Positions 8,955 through 52,452 of a stretch of 64,000 nucleotides of DNA are shown piece after piece. The DNA is from Chitinophagaceae bacterium C216. GTDB lineage: Bacteria > Bacteroidota > Bacteroidia > Chitinophagales > Chitinophagaceae. Where the stretch lies: positions 1,116,001 to 1,180,000 of the forward strand of contig CP144143.1 in assembly GCA_028485475.2 (NCBI GenBank), in the 5' to 3' direction. The translations under genes were made by a program, and so were the position numbers. Below the pieces are notes generated by a model. That model was given only the letters and a program-made list of their open reading frames with translations, ran no database searches and was not told the DNA's origin. Within the stretch, counting starts at the first letter, position 1. Each line of letters begins with the position of its first letter.

Positions 8955-10298
8955 CTATTCGCGGGGTTTTATAACGACTTTTACTTTTTTCACACGGTTT
9001 CTTTCTGTTTCCAGAACGGTGAATTCAAAATCCCCGCAAGTAACTATCGAGTTTACCTGTGGCAAATCGCCGGCGATTTCGTTAATAAGACCGCCCAACG
9101 ATTCGTTATCTCCTCTTACTTTATCAAATGTATTGGTAGGAATTGACAATGTTTTACATACATCGTGCAGCATGGTACTGCCTTCCAAGATATAAGTGTT
9201 ATCATCCACTTTTTTGTTATCGTCTTCTACTTCATCAAACTCATCTTTAATATCGCCAATAACTTCTTCCAAAATATCTTCCAGTGTCACAATACCGCTG
9301 GTACCGCCAAACTCATCCACTACTATTGCAAAGTGCAGGCGTTTTTTCTGAAACTCTAGCAGCAAATCTTCGATGAGTTTTGAGTCGGGCACAAAGTATG
9401 GGGGCCTGATAACGGAATGCCAGTCGAAATCTTCCTCATAGAGATGTGGGATCAGGTCTTTGGTATTGATAATACCCTCTATTTCATCCAAGTTTTTCTT
9501 GTACACCGGAAGGCGAGAGTATTGTAATTCCTGAATTTTTTTAACCAGTTCGGGGAATGGAGTATTATATTCAACACCACTTACGTACAGCCTGCTGCGC
9601 ATGATTTTCTTCACCGAAATTTTGCCAAACTTCACGATGCTTTTCATGATGTTCTTCTCTTCGGGAGAGGCCTCTTCATCAGTCTGTACATCAATGGCTT
9701 CGTCAAATTCTTGCAAACTATTTTGCTCGGCGTTATCGGTTCCTATAGTTTTCCCAATGCTGTCGGCTACTAATACAATGCTTTTACTGATGCGTCTTAA
9801 TAACAGATGCATTACTTCTACTGTGAAGAGCAGAATTGGCCACTCATAAGCAAATCGAAGACTATTTTGCCGCGCCCATACACGCGGAAAAATTTCCAAC
9901 GGAAAAATAATCAGAAAGGCAATTAAAAGCCATTTGAGAATGATAAAGTAAATGTTATGAAAATACTCAGGTGGTGAGTATAGATTGATAAGATAATTGG
10001 TTAAAATAATAAGGCAGATATTCAAAATCGTTTTGGAGATGAGCATGGAAGTATATATCTCCTTAGGCTCATCCAGTAAATCAATAATCCTGCGTGCGGC
10101 AGGTTGTTGTTTGGTTTTTAAAACATCAATATCTTTTTCGCTTAGCGAAAAGATGGCTGCCTGAGATCCGGATACGGAAAAGGATAAAAAAACAAGCACC
10201 AACAGACCTATTACCAATAAGGTGCTGCTTTGCGTACTAGCCTCTAATTGTAGCTGTCCCAGGCTATTATATAGAGTAGCGTAAAATAGGGTATACAA
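8955..10298 (-). CDS. gldE: GldE-like CNNM/CorC-family membrane protein
   Basis: A 447-residue protein with four hydrophobic segments in the CNNM (DUF21) domain (about residues 25-200), two CBS domains (about 215-340, with SRLPVYKKNLDEIEGIINTK and FAIVVDEFGGTSGIVTLEDI) and a C-terminal CorC/HlyC domain. Family members act in magnesium or other cation transport. In Flavobacterium the gliding protein GldE has this architecture and lies after mutY and ssb, as here. The gldD gene that normally follows is absent; DUF3109 takes its place. The GldE name therefore rests on architecture and synteny and not on any gliding evidence. Confidence 0.82.
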   Translation of the reverse strand: MYTLFYATLYNSLGQLQLEASTQSSTLLVIGLLVLVFLSFSVSGSQAAIFSLSEKDIDVLKTKQQPAARRIIDLLDEPKEIYTSMLISKTILNICLIILTNYLINLYSPPEYFHNIYFIILKWLLIAFLIIFPLEIFPRVWARQNSLRFAYEWPILLFTVEVMHLLLRRISKSIVLVADSIGKTIGTDNAEQNSLQEFDEAIDVQTDEEASPEEKNIMKSIVKFGKISVKKIMRSRLYVSGVEYNTPFPELVKKIQELQYSRLPVYKKNLDEIEGIINTKDLIPHLYEEDFDWHSVIRPPYFVPDSKLIEDLLLEFQKKRLHFAIVVDEFGGTSGIVTLEDILEEVIGDIKDEFDEVEDDNKKVDDNTYILEGSTMLHDVCKTLSIPTNTFDKVRGDNESLGGLINEIAGDLPQVNSIVTCGDFEFTVLETERNRVKKVKVVIKPRE

Positions 10299-17794: not shown

Positions 17795-18039
17795 AGGTTG
17801 AATGTTAAGCTTTTGTAAATTTTTTTTGTGTTATACGGAGATGCTTTCTTATATTCGATTTGCTTATTGTAGTATTTCAAGCAAGTGAAAGATAAATTTT
17901 CTGCTTTAGCGGCTGGGTTGTAATTTAGGGTGTGAAGGCAGAGCGCAATAACACTGCTTTTCCGAAAAAAGCGCTAAATATCTGATATTGTCACTATGTG
18001 AGTGCTTATTTCGGAGTGATGTTTTACATGAGAGGACAC

Positions 18040-18070
18040 AAAAAAACCTCCACTGTAACACAGTGAAGGT
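18040..18070 (-). terminator. Rho-independent terminator of the tRNA-like RNA gene
   Basis: On the minus strand ACCTTCACTG pairs with CAGTGGAGGT (10 bp, one G-U) around a 5-nt loop and is followed by seven T residues. It begins about 4 bases after the 3' end of the tRNA-like domain, so the RNA has its own dedicated terminator. Confidence 0.9.
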
Positions 18071-18074
18071 GAAA

Positions 18075-18236
18075 TGCTGTAGGGGGAGGAATCGAACCTC
18101 CACGAGGCGGTTAGCTACAACACAAAGTTAGTGGTCAACCCTGGTCGGCCTGACGGTCGGCTCTATGTTGCGTTTATCCCGTGCTCCTCACCCTCGAGAC
18201 AAGAGGGCATGTCTGCCAAAGTTTCATCACCCCACA
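18075..18236 (-). ncRNA. tRNA-like RNA: leucine-type body with an 89-nt variable region and a GUC anticodon loop
   Basis: Read on the minus strand, the RNA opens with TGTGGGG (18236-18230), which pairs over 7 bp with CCCTACA (18084-18078). A D-arm (ATG stem, 13-nt loop containing GG) has the form of bacterial tRNA-Leu. A 5-bp anticodon stem (CCCTC/GAGGG) holds loop TTGTCTC, placing GTC at the anticodon (18200-18198). The T-arm is perfect: GGAGG, loop TTCGATT, CCTCC. Between anticodon and T arms lie 89 nt (18190-18102). They keep the Leu-type edges (TG at the start, CGT at the end) and contain a 10-bp helix, CAACATAGAG with CTTTGTGTTG. Position 73 is G and no CCA is encoded. The remaining flank, 17795-18039, shows nothing else. 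Confidence 0.8.
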
Positions 18237-18398
18237 ATATAGAAGAACTTGTTTTTCTCAGATATTTGAGATTTATAGAACAAAAATAAAGAGAATGTCT
18301 TATTTGTTCCAAATATTTTAATGTTTTTTTTAAAAATATAGTTTTTGTTTAATAAAACCGTATTTTTGTTGAAATAAATTAAATTAAAACTGCTAAAA

Positions 18399-18866
18399 AT
18401 GAGTGCAAAATTAAATCTTGACAAACTGGATCTGCAAATCATTGAGCATATGATGAGTGATGCGGAAATCTCTTATGCCGATTTGGGTAAGAAGCTTTTC
18501 GTTTCGGGAGGCACAATTCATGTGCGAATTAAGAAGCTACAGAAGGATGGAGTCATTAAGGGTACCCGGTTACATCCCGATTTGAAGCTGCTCGGTTATG
18601 ACGTTATTGCTTTTATCGGAATTTATCTGCGAGAAAGTTCTCTCTACGATACAGTTGCCAAAGAGCTCTATAAAATAAAAGAAATAGTACGGTTGAATTA
18701 TACGACCGGAAACTATAGCATGTTTGCCGAAGTTGTGTGCAAAGATATATCAGAACTAAGAGATGTGCTGCATGAAAAGTTGCAAAAAATAAAGGGGATA
18801 GAACGTACCGAAACCATCATCTCGCTAGAGGAAAGCTTTTCCCGTAATGTGAAAATACTGGATTAA
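18399..18866 (+). CDS. Lrp/AsnC family transcriptional regulator
   Basis: A 155-residue regulator. An N-terminal helix-turn-helix (LDLQIIEHMMSDAEISYADL, then VSGGTIHVRIKKLQKDGVIKG) is joined to a C-terminal RAM (AsnC) ligand and oligomerisation domain (about residues 70-150, with YDVIAFIGIYL and the TTGNYSMFAEV strand). Family members bind amino acids and control transport or amino-acid metabolism. The target is not evident from its neighbours. It stands alone upstream, with a long AT-rich leader, and its stop lies inside the hairpin shared with ligA. Confidence 0.92.
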   Translation: MSAKLNLDKLDLQIIEHMMSDAEISYADLGKKLFVSGGTIHVRIKKLQKDGVIKGTRLHPDLKLLGYDVIAFIGIYLRESSLYDTVAKELYKIKEIVRLNYTTGNYSMFAEVVCKDISELRDVLHEKLQKIKGIERTETIISLEESFSRNVKILD

Positions 18867-52126: not shown

Positions 52127-52322
52127 AAAACGTAAACGTTTAAATTGTTATAAGAACTTTTTTCACCTTTTTTATAAATAGCATAACATCAGGGCTTGTG
52201 GGTCCTTGTGTCAGCAATCGGATGTATAAAGGTTTAATAAACTAACAAGCTTGCCCTTATCAAAGTTTAGAAAAGATTGGCAATAATCAATAAATCCGGG
52301 CTGAAATATTTAAAATAAAAAA

Positions 52323-52418
52323 TGCAGGCTACTCACATCGCGCCGCTACAACCGACTATCCTTGCTGCCTTCCGGCCCTGGGGAGGTTTATCAGGAGCTG
52401 GCCGTATGAGACCTGCGC
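52323..52418 (-). ncRNA. ffs: Signal recognition particle RNA, small bacterial type
   Basis: On the minus strand the sequence contains CCTCCCCAGGGCCGGAAGG and CAGCAAGG, the conserved Ffh-binding hairpin of domain IV with its GGAA loop. The ends (GCGCAGGT near the 5' end and AGTAGCCTGCA near the 3' end) pair to form the long helix. It is followed by T-rich sequence that can end transcription and is preceded by a consensus promoter. The 5' end is placed from the promoter and is approximate. The stretch 52127-52320 downstream of it shows no other feature. Confidence 0.92.
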
Positions 52419-52420
52419 CG

Positions 52421-52452
52421 CAAAAATAGTGTATCGGGGGCAACCTGCCAAA
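52421..52452 (-). promoter_or_regulatory. Promoter of the SRP RNA gene
   Basis: Minus-strand TTTG (52452-52449), a 20-base spacer, then TATTTTTG (52428-52421). It is one of the best consensus matches in the window. Confidence 0.82.

Follow-up and report, generated by a model that had tools for sequence, protein, structure and literature searches.

A conserved tRNA-like RNA of Bacteroidota and viruses that may serve as a carrier for making asparagine from aspartate

The locus studied here lies in a 64,000-nt stretch of the genome of Chitinophagaceae bacterium C216 (hereafter the window) and raises the question of what could be the role of an RNA that folds into a complete cloverleaf with a branched region of 89 nt between its anticodon and T stems. 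That the minus strand encodes such an RNA, with a 7-bp acceptor stem, a D arm with GG, a 5-bp anticodon stem, a 5-bp T arm and an inner helix within the 89 nt, came from an original prediction, and these elements are confirmed here, with the 89 nt at 18190-18102. In tRNA numbering, U1 is at 18236, G73 at 18077 and C74 at 18076. The acceptor stem is TGTGGGG/CCCTACA, the D stem is ATG/CAT with GG in the loop, the anticodon stem is CCCTC/GAGGG, and helix V3 pairs CAACATAGAG (18170-18161) with CTTTGTGTTG (18127-18118); GGGUUGACCAC is common to long members of the class. The features of the locus are as follows, with the evidence for each in brackets.

18076-18236, minus strand: whole tRNA-like RNA, U1 to C74 (match of 135.3 bits to covariance model R1 over 18076-18237, which includes base -1; homologs)
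18230-18236, minus strand: 5' strand of the acceptor stem (U1, G2 and U3 near invariant; 4-7 covary)
18209-18227, minus strand: D arm of 3 bp with GG in the loop, tRNA-Leu-like (comparison and alignments)
18191-18207, minus strand: anticodon arm (loop TTGTCTC at 18202-18196, GUC at 18200-18198, C38 at 18196)
18102-18190, minus strand: 89-nt variable region between the anticodon and T stems (measured)
18186-18189, minus strand: 5' strand of stem V1 (GAGG), partner 18107-18104 (two of four pairs changed on both sides)
18179-18181, minus strand: 5' strand of stem V2 (CGG), partner 18110-18108 (three of three pairs changed on both sides)
18173-18178, minus strand: GAUAAA side of a conserved internal loop (conservation among members)
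18111-18114, minus strand: CUAA side of the same loop (conservation among members)
18118-18170, minus strand: helix V3, enclosing the long-form module (length very variable among members)
18131-18141, minus strand: GGGTTGACCAC (conserved among long-form members only)
18085-18101, minus strand: T arm GGAGG-TTCGATT-CCTCC (covariation alignments)
18076-18084, minus strand: 3' strand of the acceptor stem with G73 (18077) and C74 (18076) (comparison with the genome's own tRNAs)
18039-18070, minus strand: intrinsic terminator hairpin and T run (sequence read by eye)
18281-18288, minus strand: TATTTTTG, a match to TAnnTTTG (upstream motif count)
18399-18866, plus strand: Lrp/AsnC-family regulator gene, divergent to the RNA (PF01037, PF13404)

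The terminator that had been assigned to the RNA is found as a hairpin and T run following it, and the gene is flanked by the divergent Lrp/AsnC-family gene on one side and by a DUF3078 gene on the other. TAnnTTTG, which we take to be the Bacteroidota -7 element, occurs within 130 nt upstream of the RNA at 129 of 183 genome loci (10% in letter shuffles), and the full TTTG-N16..20-TAnnTTTG arrangement at just 28 of the 183. Elsewhere in the window, an ordinary Bacteroidales small SRP RNA is found at 52318-52425 (minus strand; 87.4 bits, Rfam).

Is the RNA a member of a known family? Rfam 15 gave no match at gathering score at the locus, so that a known Rfam class was rejected; at E≤10 there was a match to 17 nt of the T arm of beta_tmRNA, and three snoRNA hits scored under their gathering thresholds. 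A good Rfam hit such as tmRNA had been named in the original prediction as evidence against it, and none reached the gathering score; tmRNA identity was also rejected, since the RNA matches no tmRNA model and the tmRNA of the genome is a separate gene. ARAGORN found no tRNA within the window, and the 40 ordinary tRNAs and the tmRNA of the genome all lie outside the RNA locus. A leucine tRNA with an intron was rejected as well, as the arm pairs at its own base and its length varies in place across homologs. The earlier reading of a body like that of tRNA-Leu, its arm having grown in place, is borne out by shorter members, with variable regions from 39 nt in hosts, which share the base of the arm.

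Taken by itself, the window sequence is weakly unusual, with a fold z of -1.73 and 7 of 200 shuffles equally good. A DNA search gave matches in 38 of 59 genomes, the own genome included. In alignment A1, which holds 15 sequences, 404 of 405 pair cells are paired and 13 pairs are changed on both sides, and 0 of 500 shuffles reached such pairing. Compensatory changes, the lack of which the original prediction had named as fatal to it, are present in all six helices, each of which has at least one pair changed on both sides. In alignment A2, whose 75 distinct rows were gathered by similarity and model score and not by motif pattern, 99.1% of 2019 cells are paired and 16 pairs are changed on both sides; RNAalifold gives the same cloverleaf from A2 unprompted, A2 itself having been aligned to the model. 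The window element is therefore confirmed as a conserved RNA gene, the comparative evidence being decisive. With this covariation, the lack of an Rfam match and the wide distribution, the RNA stands as a distinct gene and a new tRNA-derived class, as had been proposed.

Members of the class share a general architecture. The D arm, G26 and the T arm are as in tRNA-Leu, the acceptor stem is near fixed at UGU/ACA while pairs 4-7 covary, and the anticodon loop is Y-N-GUC-Y-C. The variable region of host members spans 39-131 nt, that of viral ones 21-102 nt. It begins with V1 (4 bp) and, after a bulge of some 4 nt, continues with V2 (3 bp), the internal loop GAYAAA/CUAA and the hairpin V3, the size of which is very variable. 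Short and long forms stand in tandem at two loci (L017, L025). Rows of three to five RNA copies are found at L108, L109 and L309, and at L006 the RNA is followed, at a distance of about 120 nt, by a second, partial copy made of its 3' part and terminator.

A covariance-model search of related genomes had been suggested, and model R1 finds the RNA in 39 of 395 genomes of the phylum, with matches of at least 93 bits; the other listed matches are tRNA-sized and reach at most 61 bits, with one at 67 bits in between. The 67-bit match (L363, in genome G127) is a 77-nt relative with U1-A72, G73, C38 and the loop CTATCTC and no long arm; it looks like a decaying or converted copy in a genome that bears AsnA. 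Diverged members also fall inside this score gap: an insertion-bearing one at 82.4 bits, viral ones down to 75.7 bits, and those of three genomes of a further set of 295, at 68.6-89.4 bits (G690, 89.4; G550, 80; G585, 68.6), which are 109-148 nt long and were called carriers on score and length alone. A degenerate pattern matched at least 120 stretches in genome contigs, and R1 finds a member in all 80 listed; the titles of the listed contigs include Chitinophaga, Niabella, Terrimonas, Saprospiraceae, Cyclobacterium, Algoriphagus, Spirosoma, Dyadobacter and Pedobacter, as well as metagenome genomes, one of them named Ignavibacteriales.

The same pattern matched at least 120 stretches in viral contigs, and of the 80 listed 79 hold full members and one a cut piece, the contigs scored having been chosen by the RNA's own motif. 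Some of these contigs may be host sequence. Many are probably truly viral, because in 41 of 120 matched viral contigs the RNA is closely followed by a gene of the same protein cluster, whose sole tested member is a terminase large subunit. The viral neighbour clusters, judged from one representative each (terminase large subunit, exonuclease, PhoH-like and one unmatched), gave no functional clue. When phages were searched by blastn with three viral queries, two matched nothing and the third gave 13 matching records. One of these is a 636-kb uncultured phage with one member (110.3 bits) near six tRNAs; this query also matched a tRNA-Leu (47.5 bits) and short T-arm stretches in Streptococcus phages. 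An annotated tRNA-OTHER of Streptococcus phage phiARI0462 (L351) shares 24 identical T-arm/acceptor bases with a viral member but scores 27.7 bits, and was rejected as a member. The RNA class, then, spans several Bacteroidota families and viruses. Viral contigs also hold further tRNA-like elements of 99-164 nt (R1 28-48 bits) with a Leu-type D arm, mostly with the acceptor AGTCAGG or close to it and with long inserts near the anticodon (L135:5129-8252; L143:4342-4707 and 9979-10113; L147:4331-5974; L150:9733-9831); they may form another unusual tRNA-like family of these viruses.

What the RNA may do is suggested by signals that go beyond the original prediction, namely an Asp anticodon, the pair U1-A72 and broken decoding features. 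Aspartate identity rests on G73, G34, U35, C36 and C38, with a minor part for the second pair, according to the portion of PMC9976931 that treats it. In A2, G34 is found in 74 of 75 rows, the exception having U34, and U35, C36 and C38 in all 75, so that the set recognised by AspRS is present in the RNA; one member, at L105, has UUC in place of GUC. These loop figures are quoted from A2 since the patterns behind alignments A3 and A4 fix GTCYCG and bias loop statistics. Across 169 distinct host members from A2 and A4, G73 and G2-C71 are found in all 169 and U1-A72 in 168. The own tRNA-Asp likewise has GUC, C38 and G73. Bacterial GatCAB recognises U1-A72, as stated in part of PMC4206432, and among the 40 tRNAs of the genome this pair is found in tRNA-Asn and tRNA-Gln only. 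One feature of an AspRS substrate is missing: G1-C72, described in the same portion of PMC9976931 as strictly conserved in bacterial tRNA-Asp and as positioning the 3' end in E. coli AspRS, is replaced by U1-A72. G10 occurs in just 3 of 75 rows of A2, and the missing G1-C72 and rare G10 could lower charging.

The RNA has the shape of a decoding tRNA, with stems of 7, 3, 5 and 5 bp, a TTCGA T loop and GG in the D loop, but lacks two decoding marks, U33 and purine 37. All 75 rows of A2 have T or C at position 37, and position 33 is T, C, A and G in 55, 11, 7 and 2 rows respectively; T33 and purine 37 are found in every one of the 40 own tRNAs. The 3' end resembles that of a tRNA awaiting its CCA, because C74 is encoded after G73 as in all 40 own tRNAs and one viral copy encodes CCA, as do five nearby ARAGORN tRNAs. 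As read from its sequence, with the Asp identity set, U1-A72, a free position 33 and a pyrimidine at 37, the RNA joins the main charging signals of tRNA-Asp to the pair that marks tRNA-Asn for amidation, and has lost two traits of a decoding tRNA.

The AspRS of the own genome, a bacterial-type enzyme with a GAD domain, is the sole other match there beside AsnRS. It has F where the Asp/Asn ligases of P. aeruginosa and mycobacteria have H, at a position that we take to be a discriminator of tRNA-Asn charging; the T. thermophilus enzyme has L there and 6wom has K. This comparison of a single residue hints that the own AspRS does not charge tRNA-Asn, and so would need a separate carrier.

As the RNA bears the GatCAB signal, its carriers should have GatCAB, and this prediction was borne out: GatB is present in 39 of 39 carriers of the 395-genome scan and in 51 of 51 carriers among 295 genomes of the class, a sample that partly overlaps the first set of carriers and non-carriers. 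From the 395-genome scan we also hand-picked 28 non-carriers of the same class and 13 genomes of other classes, the latter used for GatB and AsnA only. GatB was found in two of the 28 (G127 and G096, both without GlnRS) and in 13 of the 13, in which the RNA was absent and AsnA was found in none. AsnRS is present in 67 of 67 genomes tested and GlnRS in 59 of 67; therefore, in genomes that have GlnRS, no other task for GatCAB is obvious.

That GatB implies the RNA as a general rule was rejected, since 174 of the 225 GatB-positive genomes in the 295-genome set are without it. The picture sharpens when GlnRS is considered. Among GlnRS-positive genomes, the RNA is found in 26 of 26 with a strong GatB match (E≤1e-100), 0 of 14 with a weaker match and 0 of 61 without GatB; the cut was chosen after the table had been seen, and counting any GatB match gives 26 of 40 with the RNA (Fisher 2e-14, uncorrected for kinship). 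Families f1, f22 and f75 contain both states. G127, a non-carrier in the hand-picked set, is a carrier in the 295-genome set and, having no GlnRS, lies outside the 26. The RNA-less GlnRS-positive genomes with a weaker GatB comprise eight of family f85 (E 5e-93 to 2e-99) and six of f88/f126 (2e-40 to 2e-45). The f85 genomes (G459, G498, G529, G557, G583, G609, G632, G655) have GlnRS and a somewhat diverged GatB, and no RNA was found in them; either the RNA is diverged or GatCAB has another use there. In GlnRS-negative genomes, the RNA is found in 25 of 185 with GatB and 0 of 9 without, and the 160 GatB-positive genomes lacking it are as expected if GatCAB serves tRNA-Gln there.

The carriers also differ from non-carriers in asparagine synthetases. 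E. coli-type AsnB, assigned from a split match pattern and later checked by sequence, is found in 0 of 39 carriers and 21 of the 28 hand-picked non-carriers, AsnA in 3 of 39 and 9 of 28, and one or the other in 3 of 39 and 24 of 28, leaving four non-carriers with neither. Compared with the AsnB of G078, the E. coli-type AsnB of G158, G409, G445 and G397 scores 664-862 bits; for the 37 carriers that have an AsnB-family match the best one scores 56-187 bits, and two carriers have no match. AsnB homologs of other subfamilies score above the TIGR01536 cut-off in 34 of 39 carriers, and these may make asparagine. AsnA was predicted for six genomes without AsnB or full RNA, and is present in G253, G285 and G127 but was not found in G170, G074 and G096. 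In the own genome there is no AsnA match, and the AsnB family is represented only by a distant protein below the cut-off, the start of which (from the first ATG) lacks the MC of other AsnB.

The divergent AsnC/Lrp gene adjoins the RNA at 127 of 169 testable genome loci, at a median distance of about 142 nt, and is absent at the other 42 and at all 113 testable viral loci; at 19 further genome loci the upstream sequence was too short for this count. The AsnC of E. coli is an activator of asnA whose effect is weaker in the presence of asparagine, and it is named among the regulators that are divergent to their targets (PMC8707732, in the part that treats it).

We argue that the RNA is a dedicated non-decoding carrier that is charged with aspartate and amidated to asparagine, a reading to which we give a probability of roughly 0.6. 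AspRS would read GUC, C38 and G73 and load aspartate onto the CCA end, and GatCAB would recognise U1-A72 and convert aspartate to asparagine on the RNA. Least certain is the last step, in which asparagine would be released free, for AsnRS to use on ordinary tRNA-Asn. With no fixed U33, a pyrimidine at 37 and a big structured variable domain, the RNA seems designed to stay off the ribosome, because an asparagine-loaded RNA with an Asp anticodon would misplace asparagine at Asp codons. The variable domain may bind GatCAB or AspRS, repel EF-Tu or speed release; its role and the release step are the weakest parts of the proposal. The AsnC-type regulator plausibly tunes the level of the RNA to asparagine, like AsnC and asnA in E. 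coli, and some viruses carry their own copy of the RNA. For the class as a whole, we see about an even chance of a coenzyme-like carrier, often beside an AsnC-type regulator, on which aspartate is loaded, amidated and released off the ribosome, replacing asparagine synthetase.

It is conceivable that the RNA is instead an uncharged scaffold or cofactor of AspRS and GatCAB, the true substrate being tRNA-Asn, which a non-discriminating AspRS would mischarge as it does in Bdellovibrio, Thermus and Deinococcus. The GatB linkage would fit equally well, and the own tRNA-Asn has U1-A72. However, the conserved G73, C74 and GUC/C38 are required for charging and not for scaffolding, and F in place of the H of Asp/Asn ligases would hint against such an AspRS, provided that this position does discriminate. 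The tRNA-Asn route has been proposed for bacteria with AsnRS, GlnRS and GatCAB and without asparagine synthetase, some Bacteroidetes among them (in the relevant part of PMC4206432); on balance we consider the scaffold unlikely. Quite improbable, to our mind, is a regulatory RNA whose charging state senses aspartate or asparagine and acts on the AsnC/Lrp gene or on other targets, with no part as an intermediate of biosynthesis. The frequent divergent neighbour would suit it, as would the internal loop GAYAAA/CUAA and the long-form module, which resemble putative binding sites, but 42 of 169 genome copies and every testable viral copy have no such neighbour, and a sensor of free amino acids needs no GatB linkage.

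That the RNA is a decoding tRNA-Asp, or a device placing asparagine at Asp codons, is suggested by the GUC anticodon, by T33 in 55 of 75 rows and by ARAGORN, which reports a tRNA-Asp for three of the four short viral members submitted to it. This we regard as very improbable: position 37 is always a pyrimidine in A2, base 33 is free, the variable region reaches 131 nt, and the own genome has a normal tRNA-Asp. Hardly to be expected, finally, is a serylated RNA. G73, G2-C71 and a large variable region do fit bacterial serine identity, as outlined in part of PMC9976931, but serine identity ignores the anticodon, whereas U35, C36 and C38 are invariant here and G34 nearly so, and serylation gives no reason for the GatB linkage.

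If the dedicated carrier is the true reading, it would bear on a puzzle in print: what GatCAB is retained for in bacteria that have AsnRS and GlnRS and lack asparagine synthetase. For the organisms tested in the part of PMC4206432 that poses the puzzle, the solution given is an AspRS of relaxed specificity that works on tRNA-Asn; Bacteroidota may instead use a separate RNA. The RNA would then be a dedicated carrier for amino acid synthesis and a candidate essential gene in synthetase-less strains, missed by Rfam and ARAGORN, and one may ask what viruses gain from copies of it.

In a literature search from which subscription journals were mostly, and bioRxiv preprints entirely, outside the coverage, we found no account of the RNA. 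With tRNA-Leu it shares the D arm, G26, the T arm and the base of the long arm, but tRNA-Leu has A73 and mostly G1-C72, and the RNA has G73, U1-A72, a GUC loop and a variable region with a branched conserved structure. With tRNA-Asp it shares GUC, C38, G73 and G2-C71, but differs in U1-A72, its class II body and the lack of a purine at 37. Like tmRNA, it has tRNA-like ends and is not a decoding tRNA, and unlike tmRNA it has an anticodon arm. tRNAs that act as carriers outside translation are known, such as the non-proteinogenic tRNA-Gly of Staphylococcus, an amino acid carrier that is of ordinary tRNA size and serves the cell wall, not amino acid synthesis; we know of no separate, structured RNA outside decoding whose dedicated task is to make an amino acid. 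Allo-tRNAs and selC* tRNAs act in translation. They are also unusual long-armed bacterial tRNAs, but with a Sec-like stem geometry, as described in part of PMC7609411. A close parallel is the tRNA-Asn route of Deinococcus, Thermus and Bdellovibrio, with a non-discriminating AspRS and GatCAB, which has the same order of AspRS then GatCAB, the same U1-A72 and hosts with AsnRS and GlnRS; the carrier there, according to the corresponding part of PMC4206432, is the decoding tRNA-Asn, and here its place would be taken by a distinct RNA that has an Asp anticodon and apparently does not decode. The tRNA-dependent formation of asparagine is known, but on tRNA-Asn, and a separate RNA dedicated to it would, to our knowledge, be new.
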